Source: Lucinisca nassula (Eukaryota > Mollusca > Bivalvia > Lucinida > Lucinidae). From it: a DNA stretch of 64,000 nucleotides. Below, piece after piece: positions 8,686 through 59,998 of the stretch. Each line of letters begins with the position of its first letter. The first letter of the stretch is position 1. Where the stretch lies: contig OY757021.1 in assembly GCA_963580285.1 (NCBI GenBank), positions 91,499,221-91,563,220 on the forward strand, read 5' to 3'. The notes below the pieces were generated by a model. It was not told the DNA's origin, ran no database searches, and saw nothing but the letters and a program-made list of their open reading frames with translations. The translations under genes and the position numbers were made by a program.

Positions 8686-8944
8686 TTTGTTTGTTTAATT
8701 TGAGGTTTAACGTCCCCGTCAACACTGTATAGGTCATTTTGGAGACGTTGCTTCCGATTTTGTTGGATTTTTTTTACCCGACATTGAGATGAAATGACAT
8801 CTCAATCCCTGTCGCCCAATGAAATCAATAGGGTTTATAAGCATTGACGGATCGACTCGCACCGCTTTGCCTGGACAGGCTTAGCTCTGCCTGAAAGCAT
8901 CATACAGCCCATTTATTTCTTCAAGCCCCAATGGGCGGGGGCCG
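8686..8944 (-). mobile_element. SINE-C copy with 14 bp target duplication
   Basis: Runs on the plus strand from TTTGTTTGTTTAATTTGAGG to GGGCGGGGGCCG. GATTTGTTGAGGGT occurs directly on both sides (8672-8685 and 8945-8958). A 14 bp duplication is retroposon-like, and supports a SINE, rather than a DNA transposon, for this family. Confidence 0.88.
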
Positions 8945-15035: not shown

Positions 15036-15419
15036 GAGCGTGATAGCTCAGTGGTTAGTGCACTTGCCTCTGATGCTAGAGGTCCCGGGTTCGATCCCCG
15101 GCAGCGGCGATAAAATTTCGGTGTCCGAACACGCTCCATTGACATCATTTGCAGGGATGAATGTCATTAAGTGCACCGTCCTTCGGATCGGGACGTTAAC
15201 TGGAGGCCCCCTGTGCAGGGAGAACCATCCCCTGTGCAGGTTAAAGATCCCTACCGTAATTACATGATTACTGTGAGTAATCTCGGCCAGTAGAAGGCTT
15301 TGAAATGAAATGAAATGAAGTGTAGGCTTTCATCCTGCAAAACTGGAGTGTATGTAATATACACCTGCGGTAATGGTCAAATGTGACCGACGCAGTATCA
15401 GAAGATAGATAGATAGATG
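15036..15419 (+). mobile_element. SINE-A, best copy
   Basis: The head GTGATAGCTCAGTGGTTAGT is an A-box and GGGTTCGATCCCCGGC a B-box, about 34 nt apart, as in a tRNA-derived Pol III promoter. A body follows (TTCGGTGTCCGAACACGC; CTGTGCAGGTTAAAGATCCC; CTCGGCCAGTAGAAGGC), then (GAAAT)n, then a tail GGTAATGGTCAAATGTGACC ... GAAGATAGATAGATAG. That tail matches the 3' terminus of LINE-3. GGTAG flanks both sides as a possible 5 bp duplication. There is no acceptor-stem pairing, so this is not a functional tRNA. Confidence 0.85.
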
Positions 15420-15610: not shown

Positions 15611-15873
15611 TCCTTAATGGCCTCAAAGCTGTTCAGTGTGATCAATGTGAAATGTGGATACACACTGACTGTTCCTTCATTTCAGATGCAGAATATGGCA
15701 CTTTGGTGAATTCAAGCTGCCACTGGATATGTTCAAAATGTGAGGTCTGTAACTTTTCAGACTCCTTCTTTGATGAATATGTAGAACTGAGTAAGCCAAT
15801 AGGTTTGAACCTCTGTCAGAGTATAAGAGAGGCAAATCTTCGACTGCTGATGAAACTAAGTCAAATTTTGTGA
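15611..15873 (+). pseudogene. LINE-1 PHD finger (end of ORF1)
   Basis: The frame reads QCDQCEMWIHTDCSF ... WICSKCEVC, giving the C-x2-C ... H-x2-C ... C-x2-C ligand pattern of a PHD finger, with the W before the last pair. PHD-type fingers occur in ORF1 proteins of several LINE clades, where they are thought to mediate nucleic-acid or chromatin contact. The N-terminal part of the protein is lost by 5' truncation; the first codons of the open frame (from 15562) are MITE-P sequence. It ends in TGA at 15871-15873, overlapping the endonuclease frame by four bases. Confidence 0.7.
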
Positions 15874-16937
15874 AAGGTTTGAAACTTTGCAGTATAAACA
15901 TAAATCGAATTAGAGGGAAAATTCTTGAACTTTTAGCTTTCCTCGATACATCTCAACCTCATATTGTTGCTATTCAGGAGACAAAGATAGACAGTTCAAT
16001 AACTACATCTGAGCTTTTCACTGAAACCTGTCAGCACTGTGTGTACAGAAAAGATAGGAACTCTCATGGCGGTGGGGTAATGTTGCTCATTCATAGAGAC
16101 ATCCCTCACATGCCTTTCATGGAACTTGAAAATGACACCGAATCGGTCTGGGTTAAGGTTTTTGCAACTAAAACTTCCCACTTCGTAGCTAGTTGGTATC
16201 GACCACCAAATGGTACAATGGAAAACTTCCAGTTGTTTAAAGACCAACTGGATTGCATTAAATCGCAGCATAAGGGTAAAAAACTCCCGGCTGTACATGT
16301 TCTAGGTGACCTCAACTTCAGAGACATTGCTTGGCCCGACAGGCTCAGCAAACAAGGCACAATGCTGAGTCAGTCGGAAGGACAAATATTAATTGACATT
16401 ATGAACGATTATGGCCATGAACAAATTGTTAACTTCCCCACTCGTGATAAGAACACATTGGATCTGATCCTTACGACTTTGCCAGGACAATTCGAAGACA
16501 TTCATTCCCATAATAAACTAAGTGACCACAATGTTGTCTCCGGATATTTAAAAATTCACATCCCACCAATAAAGAAACCTCGGAGGAAGGTGTACTCATA
16601 TCAGAAAGGTGACTATGAAACTATGAGGAAGGATGCACTCAGATTTGCAAAGGAGAATTACTTTAATGGTCATTCAGATGCTCGGTCTGTACAGGAGAAT
16701 TTTGATTTGATAACTTCTTTCATACATACTTCGGCCGAAAATCATATCCCCTCAAAAACTAGTAGGTCTGTATTTTCTATTCCCTGGATCACTCCAGAGA
16801 TAAGAAGGAAAATTCGCAGAAGGAATGGGATTCATGCAAAGGCAAAAAAGACGGGAAGTGGTAAACTCCGGATAAAATTTGAAAACTTGAGATGTGAAAT
16901 CAAGACTGATATAAAAATCAGCATGATTTGTATGTGA
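15870..16937 (+). pseudogene. LINE-1 ORF2, endonuclease part
   Basis: About 355 codons. The exonuclease-endonuclease-phosphatase signatures are all present: CSININRIRGK (N), VAIQETKID (catalytic E), VASWYRPPNG, HVLGDLNFRDIAWP (GDxN) and LSDHNVVSG (catalytic SDH). These residues nick target DNA to prime reverse transcription. The domain itself looks intact; the frame is lost at 16937, 100 codons after the SDH motif, before the RT begins. There is no ATG at the start, so translation would have to read on from an upstream frame in the original element. Confidence 0.85.
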
Positions 16938-17051
16938 ATAACTTGGTAGGTGATGTAAAGGCAAATCCAAGAGACTTCTACAGATATATTAATAGCCAGA
17001 AGAAAGACAGGCAAGGTATCCCGCCCCTTAATAAAAGAGGAGGGGACGGGG

Positions 17052-18415
17052 TTGCTGAATCAGACATCAGATGCGTTTAATAAAACTGAGTTCACGGAGG
17101 TTCCATTGACTGGAAGATCGGCCCCATTCATGAATAATATTGTTGTGACAGCTGCAGGAGTGATCAAATTACTTCAAGGCTTAAACCCCAGTAAGGCCTT
17201 AGGACCTGATGAGCTTCATCTTAGAGTCCTGAAGGAACTTGCAAATGAGTTGGGTCCAGTTTTTGCACACTTGTTTCAACAGTCTCTTGATACGGGTGAA
17301 ATCCCTAAAGAATGGCTCTTAGCAAACATCTGTCCACTCTTCAAAAAAGGAGATAGGGCTCTTGCCCGGTAATTATCGCCCTGTGTCTCTGACTTGTGTT
17401 CTGTGTAAATTGCTGGAACATATAGTCTGCTCAAACATCATGGCCCACTTGGACGAACATAAACTTTTGTCAGACAGACAACATGCATTTAGGAAAAGGC
17501 ACAGTTGTGAAACTCAGCTAAGCACAGTTATTAATGACTGGGCAAAAATCTTGGACAAAGGGGGACAGGTGGACACATTTATTCTTGACTCAGAAATAAG
17601 ACTGTTCGCAGATGACTGTGTTTGTTACCGGGAAATTAGAGATACACATGACTCACTGAAACTTCAGGCTGACATAGATAGATTAGGATGTTGGGCACGT
17701 AAATGGGGCATGGGATTTCAGCCAGTTAAATGCAATATTATGCAGATAACTAGGAAGGGACCTAATAAAGTTGAGGCTTCTTACACCTTAGAGGGAACGG
17801 TCCTCGAGAATGTGGACTCCATTAAATACCTTGGAGTGACAATCTCACACAACTTGAGATGGAATACTCATATTAGCAACACGTGTACTAAGGCAAATAG
17901 AACGCTTGGTTTCCTGAGGCGAAATCTTCATCAGTGCCCTCAGGATGTAAAAGAGGCAGCATATAAAGGTCTTGTTCGCCCAATCTTGGAATATTGTAGT
18001 TGTATCTGGGACCCCAGTGGAGTGGTCCTTAACGATGAAATTGAGAAAGTTCAGAATAGAGCAGCTAGATTTGTAACAGGTAATTACTGCTTTGAAACTG
18101 GGAGCATGACTGGAATACTTGGAAATTAAAATGGGAGTCTCTCAAGAAAAGGAGGAATGACAGTAGGCTAATCCTTTTATACAAAGGTCTAAAGGGTGCT
18201 GCAAGCATTCCAACAGATGGCCTTGTTCCCCCAACTAGACACTGTAGAAATCACCATTCGTTGGCATTTCAGACCCTTTGCGCAAGAACTGACATTTATA
18301 AAGAGTCGTTCTTCCCCAGAACCATTAGAGACTGGAATGCCCTTCCCGATTCGATTATTTCGACAGCTGAAGGTGCTGATGATTGCGTAGCTAAATTTAC
18401 CTCTTTGGTTTGAGC
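17052..18415 (+). pseudogene. LINE-1 ORF2, reverse transcriptase with internal deletion
   Basis: Two frames (17052-17372, 17362-18129) overlap around a frameshift. They encode KALGPDELHLRVLKELA and NYRPVSLTCVLCKLLE (RT fingers), then jump from VDTFILD straight into SEIRLFADDCVCY. The catalytic FADD is therefore present, but most of motif A after the first Asp and all of the GxPQG motif B are missing, a deletion of roughly 60-80 codons compared with LINE-3. Downstream come YLGVTISHNLRWNTHI (thumb) and RAARFVTGNY. After the stop at 18127 the same protein continues out of frame to about 18415 (FFPRTIRDWNALP). Confidence 0.85.
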
Positions 18416-23240: not shown

Positions 23241-23249
23241 CAGTGAACA

Positions 23250-23840
23250 TGAGTAGATTTCGCACATGAGACTGCAGGAGAAATCATGTGGCAGAATAGT
23301 TTTCCTCTCAAAAACCTACTAAATATTCAAATTTCATCATGAAACTTGGCTCACAAATGATAAACAGCATTTTTAATAATATGCACAAATGTGTTGTAGT
23401 CAGTTTTGGGAAAAAAGTATTTTATACATTGATTTCGCTAAAATGAGTTGATTTCGCACATGCGATTGCCAGAGAGATCAAGTGACAGAATAGATTTTCC
23501 TCAAAAAAAAAAAAAACATACTAAATTTCACCATGAAACTTGGCTCATAAATGATTAACAACATTCTTAATAATATGCACCAATATGTTTTATTCAGTTT
23601 TGTGAAAAAGGTTTTTTATACATTGATTTCGCTAAAATGAGTTGATTTCGCACATGCGATTGCCAGCGAAATCAAGTGGCAGAATAGAATTTCCTATCAA
23701 ATACATACTAAATATTGAAATTTTGTCATGAAACTTGGCTCATAAATGTATAATAACATTCTAGATAATATGCAATAACAATTTTTTGCCTGTTTTTAAA
23801 AAATTTGATTTTATAAGTTGATTTCGCTAAATCGGGCTGA
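23250..23840. repeat. 195 bp tandem repeats
   Basis: Three units, marked by AAACTTGGCTCATAAATGAT at 23342, 23536 and 23731 (194 and 195 bp apart). Each contains GATTTCGCACATGCGATTGC and a TTGATTTCGCTAAAATGAG block. The last unit grades into the right inverted arm of the 15.4-23.9 kb interval. A fragment also occurs at 19960-20030. Confidence 0.8.
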
Positions 23841-23880
23841 TTTCGCGAAATTAACTTGCTTTCGCATATTATACCTACCG

Positions 23881-31790: not shown

Positions 31791-34700
31791 ACTCTGAGTT
31801 TAGATATAGGGAATGCCTAGACGTGGTCCACGATATTATCTGCAGACATGAACTGAATCACAAAATAATTTTATGTGGAGATTTAAATGGGACCTAGCAA
31901 TCAATAGGAATAATAAACATGATGTCATCTTAAAAGACTTTGCTAAGGAACAACTCTTATCTACGGGACCTAACTGCTTATCAGATCCTACCTTTTATCA
32001 TTTTAACGGTGTTGTCACGTCACAAACTGACTACTTTCTATCAAATTACCCGCAGCTATTTCAATCTTATCATATCCTTGAGAAAGATACTAGTAATGTC
32101 TCTTCACATGTACCAGTGCAGCTCGTGCTTCAATCGTAAACTGCTTTTACAGAGCGTGACCTACCAAACGCAAATCCAAAGAAAATATCTAGAACTATCT
32201 ATACATGGGATATGGTATATTTAGATAAATTTAATGAACTCCTGAAAGCAAACGTCCAGGACGTCTGTTCCGGTGATATAAACGATGACATTGAATGTCT
32301 GACAAGCTCATTAAAAGCTGCAGCTCAAATTTCCGTACCTACGAAAACCATTACTTTTAAGGGCTCAAGGCGACGTGTTTCGGGTCAGGTCCTCCAGCGT
32401 CTGAATGAAGTTAAATCGACCTATAATCGTTGGAAACAAGCAGGAAAGCCACGTTCATGTCATCTGTTTATTTAAAATAAACTGGCTAAAAAGTGCTTGC
32501 GTAGCCAGCAGAGAATGGAAGAAGTGACCCGCCGCAAGACGTTTTATGACTCACTGATGGAAAATCCGTCTTCTAAAATGTTCTATAAACTGATCAGAAA
32601 AAGCAAGTCAAAATCTGAATCTAGTACAGCTTGTATTCAAGCTCAGGACACTAGATACTTTGATCCTGTTCAGCAAAGAAAGTGTTTTTCCCAATACTAT
32701 GAAGATTTGGCATCTCCAAAAGATTTGAACAATGACAATGTCTTTTTAGAACTGTGCAATGTACGCTGTGATGTGGCAGAAACTGAATTTGACTCTTTAT
32801 CAGAACCAGGGATATTCATAACTGAAGACAATGTTGGCTCTGCTATCGACAAGCTGAACAACGGAAAAGCAGCTGACGAATATTGTCTGTCAGCTGAACA
32901 TCTTAAGTCGGCAAAGCCAGTAATTGTACCAAAAATAACAAAACTGTTTAATCAAATCATATGGACAAAAGAAATTCCAGACTCATTTGAAACAGGTGTT
33001 ATAACCCCAGTGCTGAAGAAAGGTTAAGACTCTAAGATCATGGGTAATTACAGAGGAATAACTGTATCATCTGCCATACGGAAACTGTTTGAATATTCCA
33101 TTTTGAACAGACTGAACTTAACGCAGGCCGATCATCAGTTCGGATTTACGTCAGGGCTGTCTCCAGTTATGGCAGGACTACTTGTCAGCGAAACAAAGGC
33201 AGAAGCTTTACACAGCAATTATCCACTGTTTATGGCAACGCTTGATAGCCAGAAGGCTTTCGATGTTGTCCATCATTCCGTTCTCATGGACAATCTGGCT
33301 GAAAATAACGTACAGAAAGACATTTGGTTAATAATTAAGAATCTTTACTCAAATATCTCGGCAAAAGTAAAGTGGCCTGCTGAATACAGTGACAGCTTTC
33401 CGGTGAAGCAGAGTGTCAAGCAAGGTGGCATCCTGTTTACCCATCTGTACAAATCTTATATCGGCCCACTTGTGAAGATCCTACAGGATAAAAGGCTGGG
33501 ACTACGACTAGGTACCGTATACATTGGCGACCCCACCGTCGCTGATGATCTGGCATTTCTATCAAAGTCTAAAGATGAACTACAGCTGATGTCGGGTCAG
33601 CGCAGATATCGGATACATCCAGTTAAATCCCAAGTTACAACACCGTCTGTCATAAAGGATGAAAGTGTATCCTGGTCTTTAGGTGAAAATGAATCAACTC
33701 TTTCGGATAATACAGTGCATCTAGGTCTCATTAGAGCAGGGAAAAAGGAATCAGAATTGAAGTTTAAGGACAGAATAAGTCTAGCCAGACGAACGTCATA
33801 CTCACTCATAAACACCGGTCTACATGGTACCAATGGACTTAATCCCAAAACCTCGTATGTGATATACAGAGCATACGTAATACCCAGACTATTGTTTGGC
33901 CTGGAAGTGATCAGCTTAACAAAAGCTCAACTTTATCAGCTAGAAAGATATCACCTTAATACTCTCCGCCAGATCCAGTCTCTTCCGAAACGTACAGCAT
34001 CTTCTGCAGTATTTATGCTACTTGGTGCTCTACCAATAGAAGCAGCGGTACACAAAAGACAATCAAGTTTGCTGCACTCAGTCCTTACTAGTGAAAATCA
34101 ATGTCTACAAGAGACTCTACAACGTCAGTTAGCCTGTAGTTTTAACGTTGAGCAGAGCTTTTTCAACATTATGTCAAGAGTTCTGGAAAAGTACAGCCTA
34201 CCTACTACAGTGTATTACTTACCTCGAATACCAGTAAAGGACAGTGGAAGCATATGTATAAAAAGCTATAGAGAAATTCTGGACAAGTTTGTATGTAGAG
34301 GATTTCAAATCAAAGAAAACCTTGAAATTGCTGAAGTCAAGTACCCTGCGCATAGGATCTACACATCTAGTATGGAATGGTATTGAATCTGAGGCAGAGG
34401 TGAAGAAGGGCATTGTTAAAGCCAGATTCCTGACCGGCGTATACCTGTTACAAGTCAACAGACATCTATTCATTGGCGGAACTGTTACGCCAACATGTCA
34501 GCTTTGTTGGCTTGAAGACGAAGACATATATCATCTGGCAACACGTTGTCCTGCCTACCATGATATTCGAACGGCTACAGTTAAGCGTTTGAAGTTGCTG
34601 GTGGGGAAACAGTGCAGTACCAACATCTGGGCTACATATTTCATGGACTGGTCTTTTACTCTGAAAATGTTAGTCTGTCCAGACTGTATCAATCATATTG

Positions 34701-35514: not shown

Positions 35515-36095
35515 TCAGATGACGCTTCAGTGCTCTTCAGATTTTCTTGTCTGGAATAAAGTCAAGCTGGTCACAAGAAAATTTTACATGTATGAAATGA
35601 TCTACTATATTTCTCCGTCACAAAAAATTATACCCTCAGCAGAAAAAAACAAACCAGACTGCGCAAATGCACAGGCTGATCCAAGTCTTTTCTAGGCACA
35701 CTTGCTCGACGACGCTTCACTGCCTCTTCAGATTTTTTGGTCGGGAATAAATTTAAGTTGCTTTGGTGACAAGAAAATTTTACACGTATGAGATGATCTA
35801 CTACATTTCTCCGTCACATAAAATTAAACCCTCAGCAGAGAAAACAAACCGGACTGCGCATATGCGCAGGCTGATCCAAGTTTTTTTCCAGGCACACGCT
35901 CGATGACGCATCAGTGCCTCTTCAGATTTTTTGGGGTCGGGAATAAAGTTAATTTGGTTACAATAAAATTTTGCATGTATGAAACGATCTACTATATTTC
36001 TCCGTCACATAAAATTATACACTCAGTGGAGAAAACATACCAGACTGCGCATATGCGCAGGCTGGTCAATCTTTTCTAGGCACAAATGCTCGATG
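35515..36095. repeat. Three 190-196 bp tandem repeats
   Basis: TCTACTATATTTCTCCGTCA at 35601, 35797 and 35988 marks three head-to-tail units. Each also has CAGACTGCGCATATGCGCAGGC-type and CACAAGAAAATTTTACATG segments and a GACGCTTCAGTGCCTCTTC start. Confidence 0.85.
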
Positions 36096-36995: not shown

Positions 36996-37460
36996 CGTTG
37001 TTTATTCCTTCTGTGATAAACTGAAGGGCCTTAGAGCGTATAGCGAAAGTTTTAAAGCCGCCGTTTTGTGACGTCATTTAAGAAATGAAATTTATTTTTC
37101 TGCAGTTCATGGAAGCATGGCCGCAGTGGGTCGCGTGCAAAGTAAATGAACCCCGAAGGGGTTCATGTAAACTTTGCTAGCGACCAACTGTCGTTCGTAC
37201 TTTCATAAAAAGAGGGATAAAATAAGTTTAATTTTTATATTTACATTACATGTATTTGCCCTCATCACTGAGCGAAAAAATGCTTGTAGGGCAAACTTTT
37301 AAAGCTGAACAAACATTTACACGCTGTTTTTCTACAAAGAGCGTTGCAGCATTGACGTCATCAACGCCCGTAGAGAACAATGGTTTAGAATGACGTCACT
37401 TAATGTCACTGAAAATCATGTGATTCGATGCGTTCATGGAAGTATGAACGCAATTGTTTT
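36996..37460. other. Imperfect hairpin, otherwise nothing recognised
   Basis: 37130-37185 folds: GTCGCGTGCAAAGTAAATGA with ATGTAAACTTTGCTAGCGAC around CCCCGAAGGGG. A smaller GCGTTCATGGAAGTATGAACGC dyad lies at 37430-37452. No coding sequence. Confidence 0.5.
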
Positions 37461-37658
37461 CTATAGGTTTACCTTAGACTTTACACTGGGAATGTAAATA
37501 TTCGTAGATGGCGTTGAAACTTTAAGCATTGGAAAGGACATGAATGCATTTAGTATACAGTGAATAATTTCGGCGGGATTTCTTCTAACAATGGCATAAA
37601 GGTTGGAAGGATTTGAAGGAAACAACATAATTAATGTATGGCAATAGATCAGCTTTAG

Positions 37659-37894
37659 GGAATGTGTGGCGGCCGTAAAAAGTCTCCCTGTCCTACATCA
37701 TAGTGTAGTTTATATTTTCTTGTCCTTTGGGATCATTGATTCCATTGTGGAATTTTGAAAATATTTTGAGGGTCACTGATGAGGCCTAATTGGCCGAAAC
37801 TAGCTAGTCTGGCCCAGAAAACATGTACACTCAATATTTTCCAGTTTCGTGGTGTATTCCTTGCTTCCAAAGGATAACACTTTTATAGAACATA
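37659..37894 (+). mobile_element. 236 bp insertion carrying a hammerhead motif
   Basis: TTTAG flanks it (37654-37658, 37895-37899), and the intact version of the host repeat at 43430 lacks it. It has no coding frame. The middle holds the hammerhead core (37770-37815), followed by ACATGTACACTCAATATTTT and a TTTCGTGGTGTATTCC segment. A short, non-coding, hammerhead-bearing insertion resembles a fragment of a Penelope-like terminal repeat or a retrozyme; which of these is not decided. Confidence 0.7.
37770..37815 (+). ncRNA. Type I hammerhead ribozyme candidate (HHR-2)
   Basis: Every element of the hammerhead core is in place. Stem I 5' strand GGGTCA (37770-37775) pairs with TGGCCC (37810-37815), one G-U. 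The catalytic CTGATGA is at 37776-37782. Stem II is GGCC-TAATT-GGCC (37783-37795). GAAA is at 37796-37799. Stem III is the palindrome ACTAGCTAGT (37799-37808), able to fold as 3 bp with a 4 nt loop or pair between two molecules. The cleavage site would be after C37809 (triplet GTC). Type I hammerheads with very short stem III are known from Penelope-like elements and retrozymes. Activity is untested. Confidence 0.8.
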
Positions 37895-37945
37895 TTTAGT
37901 GTGTGAATTGTTTCAATAATAAACCACAGGTTTCATAACGAAAAC

Positions 37946-38220
37946 ACGCCTATACCTTATCGTCGAAAACATGAATCTTTTAAGATGAAAAATTGTAATA
38001 TTTTTCTAATTTCTGCTCAAAATAAAGATTGTGGGTACTCATCGAGGCGGTTCTCAAAATATAGATTGTGGGTACTCGTTAGAACCGCCTCATCAAGGCG
38101 GTTCTAACGAGTACCCACAATCTATATTTAAGAGCAGAAATAAGAAAAATTAGATTTACCCCAGCAAACCCTAGTTTTACTATATAAAAGTGGGGTTCAT
38201 GGGGGTAAATATTACAGTAA
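37946..38220 (+). repeat. MITE-H copy with perfect hairpin
   Basis: 38059-38090 and 38096-38127 are perfect 32 bp complementary arms (ATAGATTGTGGGTACTCGTT...) around a 5 nt loop. A second, imperfect stem (CAAACCCTAGTTTTACTATA / AAAGTGGGGTTCATG) follows at 38165-38205. This is the best-preserved member of the family. Confidence 0.85.
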
Positions 38221-38504
38221 ATTCGAATTGTATTCGAAAGGTTTCCGGTTTCAGCTACCTATGTACCGCCCTATTTTGTTCTTAGAGAGCTGCTGAAGTC
38301 ACCCTTAGATCAGCTGTTCGGTGTAAATTTCAACATGTTGAAGTTGTGCAGATTTAAAAGTGTGGACCCAACAGGTCTCCTGTGGGCACGCAAAAATGCG
38401 CCCAAATCTTTTACGGATGAGTTCTTAGTAACCGTCGAGTCGAGCAATTAAGTGACAAATATTTTTTTTATTTATTTATTTTCTGCCAACAGTGGCCAGC
38501 TCTT

Positions 38505-38557
38505 AAAGGAAAGAATTTGCTCCTGAGGAGCAAATTCCTTTCCTTTAAGAGTAGATC
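38505..38557. repeat. Short palindrome
   Basis: CTCTTAAAGGAAAGAATTTG and CAAATTCCTTTCCTTTAAGAG pair around CTCCTGAGGAG. The arms are about 24 bp with one bulge. Confidence 0.75.
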
Positions 38558-38747
38558 CATTTTTTCGTGGGACAGAGCTTATAGAAAAGCAAACAGGAAG
38601 TCCCGAAAGTTGTCCCTATTGAAAAAAATGGTGGAAAATGCCAGGTCTTGACATTCCCCTCAAGAGACCAATATTTTTCCTTTTCTGCAAGATTTCATGT
38701 GACCAATAAAAGACTTTAATTGACCAATATTTCTGCTTTTCTGTCAG

Positions 38748-38870
38748 TTTGTTTGTTTGTTTGTTTGCTTTGAGGTTTATCATCCAATTTTGTGGGAATT
38801 TTACTCGACATTGAGATGACATCTCCATCCCTGCCGCCCAGTGAAACCAATAGGGTTTTTATGCGCCTCG
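38748..38870 (-). mobile_element. SINE-C fragment
   Basis: TTTGTTTGTTTGTTTGCTTT, then GAGGTTTATC and, after an internal deletion, CATTGAGATGACATCTCC and GAAACCAATAGGGTTTTTAT. Head missing. Confidence 0.65.
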
Positions 38871-39108
38871 TCGTTGATACGAACCATAAAAACACACCTA
38901 CATAATTTTGACCGTCTACCACCCCCTCCCCAACGAAAACTTGACTCAACGTTGGAACAGCGTTTTCAATTCTTTCTTTCTACTATCGGTCGAATCAACA
39001 TCGGAGCGTTTTCAATTCTAGTGTGATCGGTCACTGACGCTCCAGGTTTGCAGCATGAAAACATACACAGTAATTAGAGATCTTAAACCTGCACATAATG
39101 GGCCTCCC

Positions 39109-39329
39109 TACGGGCCTCCGTGGCCTAGTGGATAAGAGCGCTGACTCTTAGTCATTAGGTCTCTCACCGCCGTAGGTTCGATCCTCGCTCGGGCCACGTG
39201 TGAGACGCCAAGTTCTGCAACGGAAGGTCAGGTGGTTTTTCTCCGGGTACTCCGATTTTCGCCCACCTCTGATTAACGATCGGCTCGATATGAGTGAAAT
39301 AATCTTGAAAGGGCCGTAAAACCCAAACC

Positions 39330-39355
<26 letters not shown>
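39109..39355 (+). mobile_element. SINE-B, full length with poly-A
   Basis: GGGCCTCCGTGGCCTAGTGG head, GTAGGTTCGATCCTCGCTCG B-box, full body and a 26-base A tract. The Pol III boxes are the best kept among the copies. The next element, a SINE-A in reverse, begins six bases later. Confidence 0.85.
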
Positions 39356-39360
<5 letters not shown>

Positions 39361-39543
39361 TTGCGCCTGCCTGCACGTGCAGGGGGTCCCCAGTTAACGT
39401 CCCGATGCGGAGGACGATGCACTTTGTGGCATTCACCCGGAGCATGTTCGGACACCGCAGTTTTATTACCGCTGCCGGGAATCAAACCGGGAGCCTCTAG
39501 CATCATAGGCAAGTGCACTAACCATTGAGCTACCACGCTCAAT
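39361..39543 (-). mobile_element. SINE-A copy
   Basis: Reverse complement begins GAGCGTGGTAGCTCAATGGT and contains CCCGGTTTGATTCCCGGCAG. The AGAT tail is absent: the copy stops in the CTGCACGTGCAGGCAGGCGC region. Confidence 0.75.
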
Positions 39544-39613
39544 TCAGTGTCGAGTGCCTGCTCGGCCACTTTAATTCATGTATATACAGGTGTTCATTCA
39601 TTGTTTCTCGTTT

Positions 39614-39920
39614 TGGCCCCCGCCCATCGGGGCTTGAAGAAATAGATTGGCTGCATGATGCTTCTACGCAGAGCTGAAAACGGCCCGCACACGAGTACTG
39701 GTAAACCGATTAGAGGATCAAAGCCTGCCCAGGAAAAGCGGTGCGAGTCCATGCTCATAAAGTTTACCCTATTGGTTTCATTGGGCGGCAGGGGTTGAGA
39801 TGTCATTTCATCTCAATGTCGGGTAAAAGTCCCACCAAATTGGAAGCAACGTCTCCAAAATGATCTATACAGTGTCGACGGGGACGTTAAACCTCAAATC
39901 AGACAAATCAAAAACAAATC
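39614..39920 (+). mobile_element. SINE-C, full length, head first
   Basis: 307 bp from TGGCCCCCGCCCATCGGGGC to TCAGACAAATCAAAAACAAA. TTTCTCGTTT is duplicated at 39604-39613 and 39921-39930. This copy best defines the two ends of the family. Confidence 0.88.
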
Positions 39921-40099
39921 TTTCTCGTTTCTGCACCAACACTGTGACTGCTGGTTATGTACAAGGATCAGCCTCGAGGTTTTAACGAGTATCCACAGTC
40001 TGTTTTGAGCAGAATATAGAATATATATATTTATGTTAAACCTTCTGAAAAAAAGACTTCTCAACTTTTCATATGATAAATTGTGATATTTGTCTTATT

Positions 40100-40265
40100 T
40101 CTGCTAAAAACATAGATTGTGGGTGCTCGTTAGAACCGCCTCAGTGTCCACAATTACGTTTTGGAGCAGAACTAAGAAAACAATGTATACCCTTTAAACC
40201 CCACTTTTCTCTATATAAACTGGGGTTTTCCAGGGTGTTCATTACATGGACTTGTTAACGTGATG
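40100..40265 (+). repeat. MITE-H copy
   Basis: ATAGATTGTGGGTGCTCGTT arm with a deleted partner, then ACCCCACTTTTCTCTATATA / AACTGGGGTTTTCCAGGG stem and the terminal GGACTTGTTAACGTGATG. Confidence 0.65.
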
Positions 40266-40308
40266 ATGCAAAATGTAGTAATTTCTACATTTTGCGTCGG
40301 TGCTTAAC

Positions 40309-40343
<35 letters not shown>

Positions 40344-40430
40344 ATAGAAATAACTACATTTTGCGTTGATGTAAAAAAAAAATAACAGCGTCCACGCAAA
40401 ATGTAGAATTGCATTTTGCATTGTGACAAG
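40266..40430. repeat. Poly-A tract inside AAAATGTAG repeats
   Basis: A 32-base A run (40311-40342) lies between copies of CTACATTTTGCGT and its complement (40268-40298, 40355-40372, 40395-40415), making several small dyads. Confidence 0.7.
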
Positions 40431-40574
40431 GCTACCATCCTATAAGTTCCCCGCGAGCTTTGCTCAGCGGAGCTTAAGATACACGGAACGGTCATAAGAC
40501 ATGGAAAACATATTGAACAAAACCTTCCCTTTTATTTATGATTTCTTTCATGATTTGTGACATTTTTCTTATTT

Positions 40575-40800
40575 CTACTTAAAACATAGATTGCGAGTAT
40601 TCATTATAAACTCATCAGCACAGATTATGGGTTTTCGATACGGAACCACCTGCGAGTACCCACAATAATTGGTTTTAGACAGAACAAAGAACAATATTAA
40701 GATATTGTACACCCCTGAAAAACCCACTTTTCTCTGTATAAAGTGGGGTTTACCGGGAAGTTCATTGTATGGGCTTGTTAATGTGATATATCACAGTCCG
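40575..40800 (+). repeat. MITE-H copy, decayed
   Basis: ATAGATTGCGAGTATTCATT arm, GCGAGTACCCACAATAATTG partner, AAACCCACTTTTCTCTGTAT / AAGTGGGGTTTACC stem. Confidence 0.55.
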
Positions 40801-41867
40801 ACGCTTTTGCATTCCCGATCTATAACAGTCACACTTATTGTGATTCGGTAAAATTAGCGTAGGTTTGTGGGTAGACATGTTAAATATCGTCAGGACCCAA
40901 GTCTGCCTTCCCATTAACGTCGAGCCAGCAGGGCAGAAAGGGCTAATGAACAGTTAAAATTAAAGACGCTCTTATGTCGAGTTATCTGCGGTCAGTAAGT
41001 ACTGTCCAATATTTAGAGGCGGAGCTACGGCTGAAATGTAATTGATTGGTTAAGTGTGACTGCTGAGATGGTGGTTTTTCTCATTTGATTGTTTACCTGA
41101 CAGACGCTGTAGACGATTGGGTTTCCGATCGATCAGATAGCAAACCTTTCGGACTCAAATAAAAACCACTGTATATAGGCCTGTTTTCGTGATGGTCGGT
41201 CAGTTGTAAGTAGACACATCACTCGCATTACGCCCCCTTTATTTGATCTACTTTACATATGGCCTCCAAACTGTGGTTGATTACTCAACAGGTCACGGCC
41301 CATCTAAATGGGGATGACCTGTAAGCCCCACAAATCTTATTTGTCTATCATAACCATCTATATCTTCAGATACGAATGCTGCGGGTCGCCAAATGCAATC
41401 TTTGCCAGGAAACAATGCCAAAGCGAACTATTTTGAGAAGAGTGTCTTGAATCTCAACAGAATCTATGACTTTATTACATAACCTGTTGGCGCCAATCTT
41501 TCATAAGATAACAAGGTAAACGCATGAATTAAATAAGACAGCTATGACTTTTTAGATGACTTATTTGCATTTTTTATACTTAAACTATTACGAGAAAGTA
41601 TTATATATTCCTGCAAAAATACTTCTGTATACGAGCCCCACTTTTATATACACTCTTACAAAATACGGACTTTTTCTGAATTTTTTCTTTTTTGTTATCA
41701 GACTTTAATCTCTAAACTAAACCATCTTTCTGCTTTGGACTGTCAGAATGGGTATTTTATTACCAGAGGCTGGCGAAAATCTGGAAACACTCAAAAGAAG
41801 TTGCTAAAGCTAAGGACAATACAGATGGCTTTTAACTATACAGAGGAAATTAAAAGAAACAGGTTTG
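40801..41867. other. No recognised feature
   Basis: About 1 kb without repeats of the families seen here and without a plausible coding frame. One of the longest unique-looking stretches of the window. Confidence 0.5.
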
Positions 41868-41925
41868 AGTGAGTGAGTGAGTGTGCGAGCACGCGAGCGA
41901 GTGGGTGAGTAGGTAAGTAAGCAAG
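41868..41925. repeat. (GAGT)n-like simple repeat
   Basis: GAGTGAGTGAGTGAGTGTGC followed by degenerating GAGC/GAGT/AAGT units. Confidence 0.85.
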
Positions 41926-42185
41926 TAATCTTGCAGGCACACAACACTGACTCAACTATGTTTCAACATTGATTCAATAGCAGGTAGGTAAGTAAATAAG
42001 GTAAAGTAAGAATGTTTATAAGTAACTAAGAGGTTTTAGTAATGAGGAAAAATTACAAATAAAAAAAAAGGGAAAAAGAAAATTTTTTTCCCATTTTGCA
42101 CAGAATGAGATGTCCCATCCCACTTTCAGAAGGGATGCATTTAAGAGTTAAGGGGTTCCTGGCTGATTAGAATTTAATCATTGAT

Positions 42186-42276
42186 AAAAATTGGTTGAAC
42201 TTTAAGCAAACAGTTAAGGCCCTGCTCAGGCGTCTTGTTCTGCAGTCTCTGATACGGGGCTGCACTGTTTGCACCG
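42186..42276 (+). repeat. MITE-P fragment
   Basis: TTGAACTTTAAGCAAACAGT, then a GCCCTGCTCAGGCGTC / TCTCTGATACGGGGCTGCAC core. Both ends missing. Confidence 0.55.
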
Positions 42277-42479
42277 AGCGATAAGTTTTTTTTCCTTATT
42301 CCTTTGTCCTTATTCCAGATTTATTTTTCAACCTAAATTTTTATAAAGGGTCATATCAGGAAAGGTCTATTTTTGGCCCCATCAAAATATGTCGACTTTA
42401 CGCTTCGGCTCCGACTTTACGTAAATATGCTCACATAGAATCGACTATTCAGTTATCACACACAATATCAAACCAAAAA

Positions 42480-42715
42480 TCGCCCGCCTATCGTGGCTTG
42501 GCAAATATATTGAGCTAAATGGTGCTTCCACGTAGAGCCGAAACTGACGACACATGAGTAAGCGGCTGTGGGTTCAAGCCTGGCTGGGGTCACGTGTGAG
42601 ACGCTAAGTTCTGCGTGGTTTTTCTCCGGGCACTCCGGTTTTTGCCAACCTCTGATTATATCTTGGCTCAACTGAATAAGTGAAATAATCTTGGAAGGGC
42701 CGTAAAACCACAGCC
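42480..42715 (+). mobile_element. SINE-C head joined to SINE-B body
   Basis: 42480-42545 is a SINE-C head (CGCCCGCCTATCGTGGCTTG); from 42546 the sequence is SINE-B from its B-box (GTGGGTTCAAGCCTGGCTG) to GGGCCGTAAAACCAC. The join could be a template switch or a deletion between neighbouring SINEs. Confidence 0.6.
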
Positions 42716-42744
42716 ATTACGATAACACAGCCGTGACACATAGT

Positions 42745-42990
42745 CCATTTTTTTCACATCACCAAAATGGCTACTTTTCTGATATTTTTCTTATTTATAG
42801 TCCAAGCTTAGGTTGCGGGTGCTCGTTAGAACCGCCTCATTGAAACGGCTCTAACGAGTACCCACAAACTATGTCTTGGGGCAGAAATAAGGAAAATCAT
42901 GTATACACCCGTAAACCCCAGTTTTCTCTATATAAAGTGGGGTTTGGTGGGGGGGGGGGCGTTCATTTCACAGACTTGTTCACCTGATGA
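42745..42990 (+). repeat. MITE-H copy
   Basis: TTGCGGGTGCTCGTTAGAAC / CTAACGAGTACCCACAAACT arms, then ACCCCAGTTTTCTCTATATA / AAGTGGGGTTTGG with a G run, then GACTTGTTCACCTGATGAA. Confidence 0.7.
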
Positions 42991-43224
42991 AAACAAAAAA
43001 AAAAAAGTTTTGAGCAGGCTGGTCAATGGAAACTAAATAATGTTCAACTCTGCTATAATCTGGAAAACTAATTATACTCTGCTTTTTCTAGAATTTTATC
43101 AGATAGTCTGACATATTATCTGATTTATAGTCTTTTGCTAGGATCTGTTTGTTTTAATTGATGGAGCTGTAAAGATCAAAGCCACTCAAATTGAGGAAAC
43201 TTTAGTCACATTTTGGTAGGAGTG

Positions 43225-43400
43225 TATAGTAAAACTAGGGTTTGCTGGGGTAAACCTTATTTTTCTTATTTTAGCTCTTAAATACAGATTGTGGGTACTC
43301 GTTAGAACCGCCTCGATCAGAAATAAGAAAATTATCACAATTTTTCATTTTAAAAGATTCATGTTTTCGACGATAAGGTATAGGCGTGTTTTCGTAATGA
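43225..43400 (-). repeat. MITE-H copy, inverted partner of 37946-38220
   Basis: Contains GTGGGTACTCGTTAGAACCG and the TCATGTTTTCGACGATAAGG flank in reverse relation to 37950-38030. The palindromic arm is deleted. Confidence 0.65.
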
Positions 43401-43640
43401 AACCTGTGGTTTATTATTGAAACAATTCACAGACTAAAGCTGATCTATTGCCATACATTAATTTTGTTGTTTCCGTCAATCCTTCCAACCTTTTAACCAT
43501 TGTTAGAAGAAATCCCGCCGAAACTATTCACTGTATACTAAATGCCTTTATGCCCTTTCCAATGCTTGAAGTTTCACCGTCATCTATGAATATTTACATT
43601 TCCAATGTAAAGTCTAATGTAAACCTCGTACTCGCAGTTT
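43400..43640 (-). repeat. Repeat U, uninterrupted copy
   Basis: Reverse complement of 37461-37658 plus 37900-37945, without the 236 bp hammerhead insertion. It supplies the empty-site reference. Confidence 0.75.
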
Positions 43641-43880
43641 TCCGACACAAAGATACAGTATCCCGTATCTCGCTAGTCGCGTTTTCCGATTCCGTATCGC
43701 CAGCATCGCTTGCTCTGAGTCCCGGCATTTGTTGCACCGTTAGAAAGCAGCCATGTATACTGCGCAACCAGACCTTAGAAATGATGTAGTCACTTATTCG
43801 CAGAGCGTAACGTCAAAATTTCCCGCCTATTTACGGTGGAAAAAATAAACAACTTTATTTGGAAGCAAACAAAGTATACA
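43641..43880. repeat. Direct repeat D, first copy
   Basis: CAGTTTTCCGACACAAAGAT ... CAACTTTATTTGGAAGCAAA; over 90% alike by eye to 44238-44483. No coding function; the 113-codon frame at 43448 crosses unrelated repeats. Confidence 0.8.
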
Positions 43881-44044
43881 ATAAATAGAGGATCTTACAT
43901 GGGTGTTCATGTATTATTGAATTTATTAAACGAGTTGGGGAAAAGGGATAAAATGCGAGCTTTTGCAGAGCATTTTATCCCCTTTCCTAAACGAGTTTAA
44001 TAAATTCAATAATACATGAGCACGAATGCAAGATTCTATTTATC
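43880..44044. repeat. Large palindrome
   Basis: Arms 43880-43956 and 43970-44044 are complementary over about 70 bp with small bulges (TGTATTATTGAATTTATTAA; GGGATAAAATGC / GCATTTTATCCC), loop GAGCTTTTGCAGA. It lies between the two D copies. Confidence 0.8.
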
Positions 44045-44237
44045 ATACGACATTTAAAACGCATTTTATTCACGATTGTTTACTAAAATGTCAATATTTC
44101 GCCGTTAATAAACGCGACGTCGTTAAGGACGCCGTACATGTAACGTTAAGGGACGTATCTAGCTAATTAGCATATTTAATCCAACAGTGGATTGTCGAAA
44201 ATATTACATGGCGTTCAAAAATACTTCTGTATACTGA

Positions 44238-44483
44238 CAGTTTTCCGACACAAAGATACAGTATCCCGTACCTCGCTAGTCGCGTTTTCCGATTCCGTAT
44301 TACCGTCATCGCTTGCTCTGAGTCCCGGCATTTGTTGCGCCGTTAATAAGCAGCCATGTAAACTGCGCAACCAGACCTGAGAAATGATGAAGTCACTTAT
44401 TCGCAGAGCGCAATGTAAAAATTTCCCGCCTATTTACGGTGGAAAAAATAAACAACTTTATTTGGAAGGAAACAAAGTATAAA
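44238..44483. repeat. Direct repeat D, second copy
   Basis: Same orientation as 43641-43880, same GTATCCCGTACCTCGCTAGT and GCTCTGAGTCCCGGCATTTG blocks. Confidence 0.8.
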
Positions 44484-44721
44484 ATAAACATATTTGTCAT
44501 ATGACGTCGCGTCTGAGAATGTAATAACGTCATGTAATAAATTCGATCATTGACTAGCAATCGGTGATAATTTCATTCTGATGCAGGATAATACGCGCCC
44601 CATACTGCTAGAGTGTACATAGATTGCCTTAATCGTGAGACTATTGAAGTAAGGGACTGGCCGGCACGTTCTCTTGACTAAATCCCAATAGAACATGTGT
44701 GGGACATTCGTTAAAGACATC

Positions 44722-47605: not shown

Positions 47606-47690
<85 letters not shown>
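47598..47690. repeat. (TA)n tract, left
   Basis: About 45 TA units, broken once, directly abutting the hammerhead palindrome. Repeated YIYI translations are artefacts. Confidence 0.97.
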
Positions 47691-47692
<2 letters not shown>

Positions 47693-47842
47693 AAAGAGAA
47701 ATGACATCACACGGAAAACACAGTAAATAATATTATTCCCAACCGGTTTCGTTTATAACTATTCCCCTGATGAGTTATAAACGAAACCGGTTGGGAATAA
47801 TATTATTTACTGTGTTTTCCGTGTGATGTCATTTCTCTTTTG
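47691..47842. repeat. Perfect 70 bp palindrome
   Basis: Arms 47691-47760 and 47773-47842 are exactly complementary over 70 bases, with the 12-base loop ATTCCCCTGATG. TATATA outside both arms extends the pairing. The right arm plus loop contains the HHR-1 hammerhead; the left arm is its antisense, so transcripts could fold either way. Such a junction looks like an inverted dimer of a hammerhead-bearing element. Confidence 0.95.
47760..47799 (+). ncRNA. Type I hammerhead ribozyme candidate (HHR-1)
   Basis: Stem I TATTCCC (47760-47766) pairs exactly with GGGAATA (47793-47799). The catalytic CTGATGA is at 47767-47773. Stem II is GTT-ATA-AAC (47774-47782). GAAA is at 47783-47786. Stem III is ACCGGT (47786-47791), self-complementary, which works as 2 bp with a 2 nt loop or as a 6 bp dimer. 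Cleavage would follow T47792 (triplet GTT). Every core nucleotide of the hammerhead consensus is present. Very short stem III is the hallmark of hammerheads in Penelope-like elements and retrozymes. The long inverted arm upstream may compete with the active fold. Confidence 0.8.
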
Positions 47843-47880
47843 TATATAATCCACTTGCCTCGGTTTTTCTACGTTTTTAT

Positions 47881-53349: not shown

Positions 53350-54374
53350 TTTTAGCTCACCGTCACGTAGTGACGAGGTGAGCTTTTGGGATCACTTTTT
53401 GTCCGTCGTCCGTGCGTGCGTCCGTCCGTCCGTCCGTAAACTTTTTCTTCAAACGACATCTCCTCCTAAACCACTGAGCGGATTTTGACCAAACTTCACA
53501 GGAATGATCCTTAGGTGGTCCCCTTTTAAAGTTGTTCAAATGGTTCCGGTCCGTTGCACATATGGGTCACAGGAGCCAAAAATAGATTTTTTTCACCGAA
53601 AACTTAAAAAAATCTTCTTCTCTGAAACTGCAAGGCCCAGGTCTTTGATATTTGGTATGAAGCTTCATCTAGTGGACCCCTACCAAGATTGTTCAAATTA
53701 TAGTGCTGGGGCCAAAAATGCCCCCGCCCCGGGGCCCTTTGGTTTTACATGGGCTTATATAGGGAAAATCTTTAAAAATCTTCTTCTCTGAAACTGCAAG
53801 GCCCAGGTCTTTGATATTTGGTTTGAATCTTTATCTGGTGGACCCCTACCAAGATTGTTCAAATTATAGTGCTGGGGCCAAAGATGCCCCCGTCCCGGGG
53901 CCCTTTGGTTTTACATAGGCTTATATAGGGAAAATCTTTAAAAATCTTCTTCTCTGAAACCGCAAGGCCCAGGTCTTTGATATTTGGTATGAAGCAGGCC
54001 TGGGGTCGATTACTTTCAAAAGTATTTGAATACAAATACAAATACTTTGCATTTCACGAATACAGAATACAAATAAAAATACATTTTTTATGAATGTATT
54101 CGAATGAGAATACAAATACTTTGCAAATGTATTCAAATACTTTTAGAATACTTTTGAATACATTTCCATCAAAACAAGAGCAACTGGTGACTGTAGTAAT
54201 GTTTGGGTCATAGACAGATACACATCTCTTTGTTTTATCTAGAACAATTTCAGACACAATCAAAGAAGGTGTACAGGATCTTGTATGAAACAGGTCATTA
54301 AATTTTGCAGTTTCTGGAGCCTTTATCAATCAAAAGCTAATGATTGATGAATTACATTACATCACATAAACACA

Positions 54375-55944: not shown

Positions 55945-57406
55945 CATAATGTATTCGTAAAACTATTCATGAATACATGACTTTTGAAATGTATTCGAAT
56001 ATAAATACAAATACTTTTATTCTAAAAAATCCACGAATACAGAATACTTCACGAATACTGAAAAATGTATTCGAATAGTATTCGAATACGAATACAGAAT
56101 ACAATTACCCCAGGTCTGGTATGAAGCTTCATCTAGTGGACACCTACCAAGATTGTTCAAATTATAGTGCTGGGGCCAAAAATGCCCCCGCCCCGGGGCC
56201 CTTTGGTTTTACATGGGCTTATATAGGGAAAATCTTTAAAAATCTTCTTCTCTGCAACTGCAAGGCCCAGGTCTTTGATATTTGGTATGAATTTTCATCT
56301 TATGGACCCCTACCAAGATTGTTCAAATTATAGTGCTGGGGCCAAAAATGCCCCCGCCCGGGGCCCTTTGGTTTTACATAGGCTTATATAGGGAAAACCT
56401 TTAAAAATCTTCTTCTATGAAACCGCAAGGCCCAGGTCTTTGATATTTGGTATGAAGCTTCATCTAGTGGACCCCTACCAAGATTGTTCAAATTATAGTG
56501 CTGGGGCCAAAAATGCCCCCACCCCAGGGCCCTTTGGTTTTACATGGGCTTATATTGGGAAAATCTTTAAAAAATCTTCTTCTCTGAAACTGCAGGGCCC
56601 AGGTCTTTGCTATTTGGTATGAAGCTTCATCTAGTGGACACCTACCAAGACTGTTCAAATTATAGTGCTGGGGCCAAAAATGCCCCCGCCCCGGGGCCCT
56701 TTGGTTTTACATAGGCTTATATAGAGAAAATCTTTAAAAATCTTCTTTTCTGAAACTGCAAGGCCCAGGGTTTTGATATTTGGTATGAAGTTTCATCTTG
56801 TGGACCTCTATCAAGATTGTTCAAATTATAGCCCTGAGGCCAGAATTGCCCCCGCTCCTGGGCCCTTTGGTTTTTCATAGACTTATATAGGGAAAATCTT
56901 GAAAAATCTTCTTCTCTGAAACCACAAGGCCTAGGTCTTTGACATTTGGTTTGAAGCTTCAGCTAGTGGACCTCTACCAAGATTGTTCAAATTATAGCCC
57001 TGGGGCCACAATGCCCCCGCCCCAGGGCCCTTTGGTTTTACATAGACTTATAATAGAGATAATCTTTGAAAATCTTCTTCTCTGAAACAACAAGGCCCAG
57101 GTCTTTGATATTTTTTTTGTGTAGCTTCATCTAGTGGACCTTTGCCAACATTGTTCAAATTATAGTCTTTTGTTGATATTTGGTATGAAGCTTCACCTTT
57201 TTAGACCTCCCTCAACATTATGCACATTATAACCCTGGGGTCAATAATGGCCCTCCCCGGGGCCCACTTGTTACTCTATGGATCAGGTGAGCGATCCAGG
57301 GCCATCATGGTCCTCTTGTTTTTTTCTCCTATTACTGCTACTCGCTCACATCTGAGCATTACGAGCAGGATTTCCTGGGTGGTAACCAGTACTTTCTGTT
57401 TTCTTT

Positions 57407-58030: not shown

Positions 58031-59998
58031 TTTTAGCTCACCAGAGCCGAAGGCTGCGGGGGAGCTTATAGGATAGGCAGTTGTCCGGCGTCGTCGTCGT
58101 CGTTGTCGTCTGACGTCAACACTTTCAAACATCTTCTCCTCTGAAGCCACTGGGCCGATTGGGCCCAAATTTTATCTGTAGCATCCTTGGGCTGGGGGAT
58201 TGAAAGTTTGTGTTTTTTATGAAAATCGGCTCATTAGTTTGGTTGCTATGGCAACTTAGAGTTTCCATAGACTTATAATGGGGAAAATTGAAAAATGGCA
58301 TTTACTGCCAAGTCATTGCAGATATTTTGACAAAACTTTTATAGAAATGTTTCTTGAGTACACTTCTCTTAGCCATATGCATTTATGCCAACCTGAAGGT
58401 CCCACAGGTTGTGCCGGGGCCATGCCCCACCCCCTCCACTTCATAAAAGGCCATATATCTCAGAAACCATTCAGATCTCGACCCCTAAACCATATATATT
58501 CTTGTTCCTATTGATAAGACGCATTCAGTAACACCAACCTGGGGGTCCTCAGGGATGCGCCGAGGTCATGCCCCACCCCCTCCACTTAATAAAAGGCCCA
58601 ATATCTCAGAAACCATTCAGATCCCCACCCCTAAACCATATATATTCTTGTTCCTTATGATAAGACCCATTCAGTGACATCAACCTGGGAGTCCCTGGGA
58701 TGCGCCGGGGCCATGCCCAACCCCCTCCATTTCATTTAAGGCCCAATATCTCGGAAACCTTACAGATCCCCGCCCCTAGACCATATATATTCTTGTTTCT
58801 TATGATAAGACACATTCATTGACATCAACCTGGGGGTCTTCAGGGATGCGCTGGGGCCTTGCCCCACCCCTCTACTTCACAAAAGGCCATATATCTCAGA
58901 AACTGTTCAGATCCCCACCCCTAAACCATATATATTCTTGTTCATTATGATAAGACGCATTCAGTGACACCAACCTGGGTGTCCCCAGGGATGTGCTGGG
59001 GCCATGCCCTACCCCCTCCATTTCATAATATCACAATATCTCTGAAACCCTACAGATGGCCACCCCTATACCATATATATTCTTGTTCGTTATGATAAGA
59101 CACATTCATTGTCACCAACCTGGTAGTCTTCCAGGGCCTTGCCCCTTCCCCTCCACTTCACAAAAGGCCTTATATCTCAGAGAATGTTCTTAGCCCCACC
59201 CTAAACCATATATATTCATCTTTCTTATGATAAAACGCATTCAGTGACACCAGCTTGGGAGTGCCCGGGGCACGCCCAGGCCATGCCCCACCGCTTTACT
59301 TCATTAAAAGCCATATATCGCAGAAATAGTTCAGATCCCCACCCCTAAACCATATACTTGTTCCTTATGATAAGACTCGTTCAATCACACCAACCTGGGG
59401 GTCTCTTTGTGCTGAGGCAATGTGCCCCGCCCTTCCACTTAATTAAAGGCTTTATATTTCAGAAACCATTCTAATCCCCACCCCATAATCATAAATGTTC
59501 TTGTTCCTTATTATTAGCACACCTACTGTAGGGGGTTCCGCAGGGGCCATTCCTATCCTTTCCACTTCATAAAAGGGCCTCAAATATCGGAAACCGTTCA
59601 GATTCCCAGCACTAAACCATATATATACTTGGTCCTTATGATAAGACACATTTAGGGACAACAATTTCGGCTTTCCTGGGATCAACAGGACATGCCCCAA
59701 CGCCTCAACTGTTTAAGAGGCCTTACAGATCCCCATTGCTAAACCGTATATATTTTTGTTTCTTATGATAAGATGCATTTAGTGATACCAACCAGGGCTC
59801 CATTGGGTCCATGCCTCACCCCCTCTACTTCATAAAAGGCCTAATGTCTCAGATACTGAGTCCACATGGGTGCTCACTTGGGCATGGGGGTTCATTTGGT
59901 AGATTAAAATGATATCATGTTAAAATACAAGGCTGCCATTGGGCAGTGCCCACCTGAGCTCTGGTGAGCATAGTGGCCCATGGGCCTCTTGTTTTTTT
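58031..59998 (+). mobile_element. AGCTCACCAGAGCC element with 145 bp tandem core
   Basis: Same opening as 57407. The core has ten units marked by CCATATATATTCTTGTTC near 58491, 58637, 58782, 58927, 59073, 59207, 59351, 59490, 59618 and 59745; the first five are 145-146 bp apart and later ones shrink to 127-144. It closes GGTGAGCATAGTGGCCCATG and CCTCTTGTTTT, parallel to the 53350-57323 element although the cores differ. Confidence 0.8.

Follow-up and report, generated by a model that had tools for sequence, protein, structure and literature searches.

A type I hammerhead insertion in Lucinisca nassula: one copy of a putative non-LTR retrozyme family with a shared 3' end and a module also present in a second family

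The window analysed here, a stretch of 64,000 nucleotides from the bivalve Lucinisca nassula, carries a complete type I hammerhead, HHR-2, on its plus strand within a short insertion. A preliminary description of this DNA had placed the hammerhead at 37770-37815. All of the stems and the core are read in the sequence at that place, and a structural descriptor matches at 37776. The only other descriptor match in the window is at 47767. The place of a first hammerhead, HHR-1, was not stated in the preliminary description and has been taken to be this second match. The features that the text refers to are the following.

37654-37658, plus strand: 5'-side TTTAG, host sequence; possible target-site duplication or microhomology, 0-5 bp
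37659-37898, plus strand: copy of the putative retrozyme family A, about 0.92 of a 261-nt unit, phase 261/1 to 239
37659-37718, plus strand: 3' part of the module common to families A and B, phase 1-60
37770-37815, plus strand: HHR-2, type I hammerhead with stems I, II and III, from the descriptor and from reading of the sequence
37770-37775 and 37810-37815, plus strand: stem I of HHR-2, GGGTCA paired with TGGCCC
37776-37782, plus strand: core CTGATGA of HHR-2
37783-37795, plus strand: stem II of HHR-2, GGCC/TAATT/GGCC
37796-37799, plus strand: GAAA of HHR-2
37799-37808, plus strand: stem III of HHR-2, ACTAGCTAGT, 3 bp and an AGCT tetraloop
37809, plus strand: C17 of HHR-2
37854-37898 (start approximate), plus strand: 5' part of the module common to families A and B; its end coincides with the shared 3' end (putative start point of reverse transcription)
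37895-37899, plus strand: 3'-side TTTAG, of which TTTA is the family A 3' end (phase 236-239) and G is host
43425-43448, minus strand: empty site in an inverted sister repeat, from sequence comparison
47760-47799, plus strand: HHR-1 (assumed), minimal hammerhead of a probable Penelope-like element, in the palindrome 47685-47843

The open helix of HHR-2 is helix I, and since C17 is at 37809, cleavage is expected between 37809 and 37810. HHR-2 is a real hammerhead sequence, and self-cutting is predicted from it. Matches as strong as HHR-2 were found only three times in 4000 order-2 Markov random windows. A search of the whole window with Rfam gave no hammerhead at the gathering score, and a search of 37000-44500 gave none up to E 5. 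When 111 bases were searched alone, HH9 scored 17.6 bits (gathering 52) and RAGATH-1 scored 18.7 bits (gathering 56.3). The insertion has a GC content of 0.394, no open reading frame of at least 90 aa in an ORF scan, and no long direct repeat within it. The folding energy of the linear insert has a z score of -2.54, and the predicted fold of the whole insert buries the hammerhead (-64.0 kcal/mol free and -56.6 kcal/mol with the ribozyme enforced).

The insertion has a 236-bp body, 37659-37894; the TTTA that follows it also agrees with the 3' end of family A. The preliminary description held that the carrier is missing from the sister repeat at 43430, and this is confirmed, the sister copy being inverted. 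The occupied and the empty site differ by 241 bp, which is the 236-bp body and one TTTAG. A second copy of the insert was sought within the 64-kb window and none was found. It had also been noted that TTTAG flanks the carrier. The motif does stand on both sides, but as a target-site duplication it is ambiguous because the family A element itself ends in TTTA; copies of the family end in ...ACATATTTA. The target-site duplication of the window copy may be 0-5 bp long. The 3' side of this copy ends at phase 239, like other family A arrays, and phases 240-260 are absent from it.

Other repeats are seen around the insertion. A foldback repeat with GAGGCGGTTCTAACGAGTACCCACAATC is found at 38030-38130 and recurs many times in the window, as matches of the flanking host repeat. 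Tandem arrays with units of 145-194 bp, near retrozyme size, are located at 23249-23846, 35521-36093, 53608-53995, 56117-57166 and 58413-59511, and the structural descriptor found no hammerhead in them. Two tRNA-like matches, at 39467-39539 (minus strand) and 15044-15101 (plus strand), are perhaps SINE heads. LINE-type retrotransposon frames with endonuclease and reverse transcriptase lie at 15870-18129 and 33040-34386. Among the 120 of 170 matches listed for the reverse transcriptase frame at 33040-34386, homologues include Mytilus and Pinctada proteins and also proteins of bacterial MAGs, Candidatus Thiodiazotropha and Sedimenticola. The Thiodiazotropha and Sedimenticola MAG proteins may be host contamination.

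The preliminary description had called for a genome-wide count of hammerheads, and it would have been contradicted by the absence of other copies. The exact 34-nt core of HHR-2 occurs at 15,322 places in the 2.926-Gb assembly and the reversed control at none, which makes HHR-2 a member of a large dispersed family. A 41-mer of the family A arm occurs at 8,803 places (reversed control 0), and a loose hammerhead motif at 66,158 places versus 13,120 for its reversed control. The family was characterized in a sample consisting of 34 loci around listed hammerhead-pattern matches, 14 loci from the arm pattern and the window. The arm pattern gave 30 loci, the other 16 of which overlapped loci already in the sample. 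Among the matches listed, from which the sample was drawn, all sampled loci except the window are on one contig, C1. Tandem units are 257-261 nt long, and a 261-nt consensus with a GC content of 0.414 was made from 13 internal units. The sample holds 59 arrays of 0.39 to 7.79 units; 38 of them have at least one unit and 15 of these have at least two. There are 142 unit fragments, of which 108 span the whole hammerhead, and 68 of those are intact by our own rule. For the 19 loci listed by the arm pattern, the hammerhead is intact in 30 of 45 complete spans.

Whether the carrier is a retrozyme had been asked in the preliminary description. HHR-2 is found in short tandem arrays of a ~261-nt unit, and the features described for metazoan non-LTR retrozymes are present: a type I core, a 170-400 nt unit with GC below 50%, tandem copies and no ORF. 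The tandem copies are a feature of the family, as the window copy itself has 0.92 of a unit. By the features that can be tested in the sequence, the HHR-2 insert is one copy of a non-LTR retrozyme, named family A. A highly self-paired circle is a further feature of that group; the family A consensus circle folds at -69.7, or at -65.4 with the ribozyme enforced, and is not clearly more stable than order-1 random circles (z -1.56). No relative of HHR-2 was found in viral contigs, prokaryote contigs or plasmids, a result of little weight as these collections hold no animal genomes. Four IMG/VR contigs have another hammerhead-like motif: L001 (11784-11829, minus strand), L003 (814-859, plus strand), L002 and L004. 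The two that were read, L001 and L003, are nearly identical around the motif, which is upstream of an apparent gene start.

The preliminary description had suggested that disruption of core nucleotides at the neutral rate would argue against it, and on this point the genome-wide counts are mixed. Core G5 is altered in 470 copies versus 15,322 intact (3.1%), worse than a control G (214 versus 11,164, 1.9%), whereas core A14 is altered in 145 (0.95%), better than a control A (202, 1.8%). In 48 units from the 19 arm-pattern loci, nine core columns have 6 substitutions in 408 versus 327 in 7144 elsewhere. Purifying selection on the core was considered as an explanation and rejected, since 1445 of 20,000 random nine-column sets are equally low and the genome-wide counts are opposite. 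An alignment of 77 hammerheads (73 of family A including the window and four of family B, with the short row L054 left out) has no covariation beyond shuffles; three pairs changed on both sides, and 111 of 500 shuffles reach that number. Because core positions are not consistently better kept than controls, most family A copies seem, from these counts, to decay about neutrally, like dead-on-arrival retrocopies. Such decay does not exclude active source copies. Of the proposal that the two hammerheads represent an active family, the large dispersed HHR-2 family is borne out; HHR-1 is not a member of it, and the counts do not show the family to be active. In one array (G000:C1:43146302-43146857) three tandem units all have the same G5 to A change in the core; a dead ribozyme thus does not prevent the spread or duplication of an array.

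Mean identity within the array is above 0.95 in 13 of the 24 arrays that have two or more long units (0.988 in L037 and 0.996 in L071, for example), and identity between arrays is 0.887. The mean of the 24 arrays is 0.909 and the lowest value is 0.575 (L029). In arrays of at least four units, neighbours are not more alike (0.959) than non-neighbours (0.962), as expected for copies of one template. Variation confined to one unit of an array is seen at 524 positions, and variation in all units at 100.

The ends of the arrays are not placed at random. Eleven of the 59 arrays were left out, five with an identity below 85% (two of these are family B pieces) and six with shared flanks; duplicate arrays were removed by hand. 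The pairs L016/L046 (right flank), L041/L043 (both flanks) and L027/L029 (left flank) were kept though they share flanks. Of the 48 remaining arrays, 40 have their 3' end at phase 234-243, where 1.8 would be expected from a uniform distribution; the figure is 38 of 45 when the flank-sharing pairs are counted once. The eight exceptions are L013, L021(+), L027, L033, L042, L063, L064 and L065. Three of them (L064, L042 and L065) also end at the shared point when the flanks are judged by eye; L064 is interrupted, and its phases 213-239 are found 230 nt further on. None of the 48 arrays ends at the cleavage site (phase 147-153). The 5' ends vary. They fall at phase 31-45 in 15 of 48 arrays (2.8 expected), these arrays ranging from less than one to 7.79 units, and at phase 210-261 in 15 of 48 (9.6 expected). 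Target-site duplications of metazoan non-LTR retrozymes, where present, exceed 4 bp. For the 40 arrays with the shared end, the mean target-site match is 2.08 versus 1.25 in a shuffled null, and a match of at least 5 bp is found in three versus 1.15. Only L030 among these 40 has a clear target-site duplication (17 bp).

A second family, B, has a 383-nt unit with its own hammerhead. The hammerhead parts of families A and B are alike (48 nt at 79% identity), and the two units also have in common a stretch of ~145 nt with 75% identity, A 194-261-77 and B 58-203. Outside the ribozyme the families appear to share little but this module. The module spans the shared 3' end and runs well past it, nearly identical in places (CTTCACT, GTGTGGCGGC and GTAAAACGTCTCCC). 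Three of the four family B arrays end at the point homologous to the family A end, with L047 as the exception. Folded alone, the A and B modules are predicted to form similar hairpins. The module hairpin has 5 both-sided cells versus 1.4 in shuffled alignments (reached in 4 of 500), a weak sign only; control alignments that were slid give 5-10 both-sided cells, and RNAalifold gives 4 weak pairs. No special conservation of the module is seen within family A: its columns at phases 226-261 and 16-30 have 0.065-0.092 differences per site, versus 0.046 for the unit outside the hammerhead and the arm. In a single case (L045 2243-2250) an A array ending at phase 239 directly abuts a truncated B copy, the kind of junction expected from a template jump. 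At L047 1341-1399 a fragment of the module was considered as another carrier; this was rejected, since its sequence fits a truncated copy of family A.

A shared 3' end that is not at the ribozyme cut, variable 5' ends and an A/B stretch that continues past the end are most simply accounted for by an internal start on circular RNA. It is proposed, with a probability of roughly two in three, that family A spreads by a retrozyme cycle through RNA circles, with reverse transcription from a fixed internal site. What has been observed of this cycle is the motif and its family, units in tandem, the 3' end that the sampled arrays share, and the module common to A and B. Cleavage and circularisation of the RNA are inferred, and so are the helper, its priming and the stop. 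Tandem family A copies would be transcribed, the hammerhead of each unit would cut the RNA to unit length, and a host ligase would close the circles. A helper reverse transcriptase may then recognise the module on the circle (about phase 194-261-77) and start at a fixed internal point in it, phase ~237-242, with priming by nicked target DNA that could be helped by short TTTA-like microhomology. The enzyme would make one or more turns of the circle and stop at variable places, often on coming back into the module (phase 31-45), and nearly one such turn would have produced the window copy. Parts of this proposal have precedents. Circular RNAs of 170-400 nt have been shown for animal retrozymes in mussel, coral and axolotl, and Penelope-like elements have been proposed as their helpers (PMC7229834). 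A Penelope-like reverse transcriptase has been shown to start internally on its own RNA in vitro, which explains the genomic tail of that element (PMC11167929).

Several observations count against the circle reading. These are the buried hammerhead, the circle z of -1.56, the lack of covariation in the hammerhead, a module without special conservation within family A, target-site duplications that are mostly not clear, and Penelope-like pieces in which the module is not found. The within-array mean of 0.909 and the 524 single-unit versus 100 all-unit positions count against it as well. The main rival is a linear, SINE-like RNA template with its 3' end at phase ~239, on which TPRT starts at that end. 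Uncut multimers or unequal crossing-over would then account for the tandem units, with the hammerhead confined to trimming of the RNA or incidental. A linear RNA ending there would yield the same 3' ends as the circle model, with variable 5' ends and no need of circles; arrays can grow by recombination, and family A copies show no special conservation 3' of the end. However, the A/B similarity past the 3' end is unexpected if the template holds nothing 3' of it, and a working ribozyme would cleave any multimer in which the hammerheads are intact. Moreover, the known animal retrozymes give circles (PMC7229834). A linear template is judged unlikely, but it deserves to be taken seriously.

Spread at the DNA level, in which extrachromosomal circles of satellite DNA are reintegrated via microhomology, is improbable. 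It would agree with the short tandem arrays, with the possible TTTA microhomology in the window and with target duplications that are mostly not clear. Reinsertion of such circles would be expected at any phase, yet 40 of 48 arrays share the 3' end while the 5' ends vary, and the 5' ends at phase 31-45 recur in arrays from less than one unit to 7.79 units. This polarity of the ends already speaks against spread by DNA circles.

HHR-1 is a different case. Its exact 33-mer occurs at 152 places genome-wide. Of the 100 that were listed, several form pairs on the same strand with a spacing of ~3.70 kb, and three have a same-strand GIY-YIG match no more than about 1 kb away. The open frames in which GIY-YIG matches occur in the genome reach 820 aa. 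L088, a piece of a tandem ~3.7-kb element, has 97.7% identity over 133 nt to the HHR-1 of the window. The Rfam type I model scores HHR-1 at 24.5 bits (gathering 34), and it fits the minimal hammerhead type. From these sequence features we conclude that HHR-1 is the hammerhead of a Penelope-like element. It is located at the centre of a near-perfect palindrome, 47685-47843, with (TA)n on both sides; the palindrome is a Penelope-like pLTR piece with an inverted copy of itself. The preliminary description had read the differing stems of HHR-1 and HHR-2 as compensating changes. This is rejected, because HHR-1 belongs to the ~3.7-kb Penelope-like elements and the two hammerheads thus come from different element classes. 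The module of families A and B was not found in six Penelope-like pieces (L083-L088, 951 to 3267 bases, none of them a whole element).

It is highly improbable that HHR-2, like HHR-1, is a solitary piece of a Penelope-like element. Such elements carry type I hammerheads (PMC7761336) and are present in the genome, but the insert is without a frame of at least 90 aa, HHR-2 has a full helix III (3 bp and a tetraloop), the periodicity is ~261 nt and not ~3.7 kb, and there is no similarity to the six Penelope-like pieces examined. A chance motif or artefact, for which it could be said that the loose motif alone is present in 36 of 100 shuffled windows, is already refuted by the number of exact copies against a reversed control of zero and is made still less credible by the scarcity of equally strong matches in random windows.

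How retrozymes are mobilised is the question on which the shared end and the module bear. Section 9 of a 2020 review states that animal retrozyme repeats show no conserved motif pointing to a helper (PMC7761336). It is suggested tentatively, at a little under even odds, that the RNA of animal retrozymes contains a portable module by which a helper reverse transcriptase is recruited and the start of circle copying is fixed. If this is true, a module common to two families shows how retrozymes are mobilised, and the same module in an autonomous element would name the helper. The shared end and the module make the question of the machinery that moves retrozymes testable. In the titles and abstract openings that were searched, and in parts of a few papers, no such retrozyme end or module is named, and the shared start point and the module may be new here.

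Among known systems, the plant LTR retrozymes resemble family A in having a hammerhead-made circular RNA as mobile intermediate, although the family A circle is a proposed one; they are described with a type III hammerhead, LTR, PBS and PPT, and circles of 600-800 nt (PMC7229834). HHR-2 has no type III hammerhead in LTRs. The Anolis Penelope-like element PAc is similar in its proposed internal start of reverse transcription, in its tandem organisation, and in ends that are set by the start of reverse transcription and not by the hammerhead cut (PMC11167929). Unlike family A, PAc codes for its own reverse transcriptase and GIY-YIG endonuclease and has a minimal hammerhead (PMC11167929). The HHR-1 family of this genome has a spacing of ~3.7 kb versus 261 nt for family A, and HHR-2 has neither a reverse transcriptase/GIY-YIG frame in its unit nor a hammerhead lacking helix III, as Penelope-like elements do. 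Family A is most like the metazoan non-LTR retrozymes of Mytilus galloprovincialis, Acropora millepora and Ambystoma mexicanum (Cervera and de la Pena 2020, PMC7229834), a likeness judged by described features. It has in common with them the type I hammerhead with a weak helix III and a palindromic tetraloop, a unit of 170-400 nt with low GC, dimers to multimers, thousands of copies, the lack of an ORF, and Penelope-like elements in the same genome (PMC7229834). What sets the L. nassula families apart from them is the shared 3' end and the module common to two families that are reported here.
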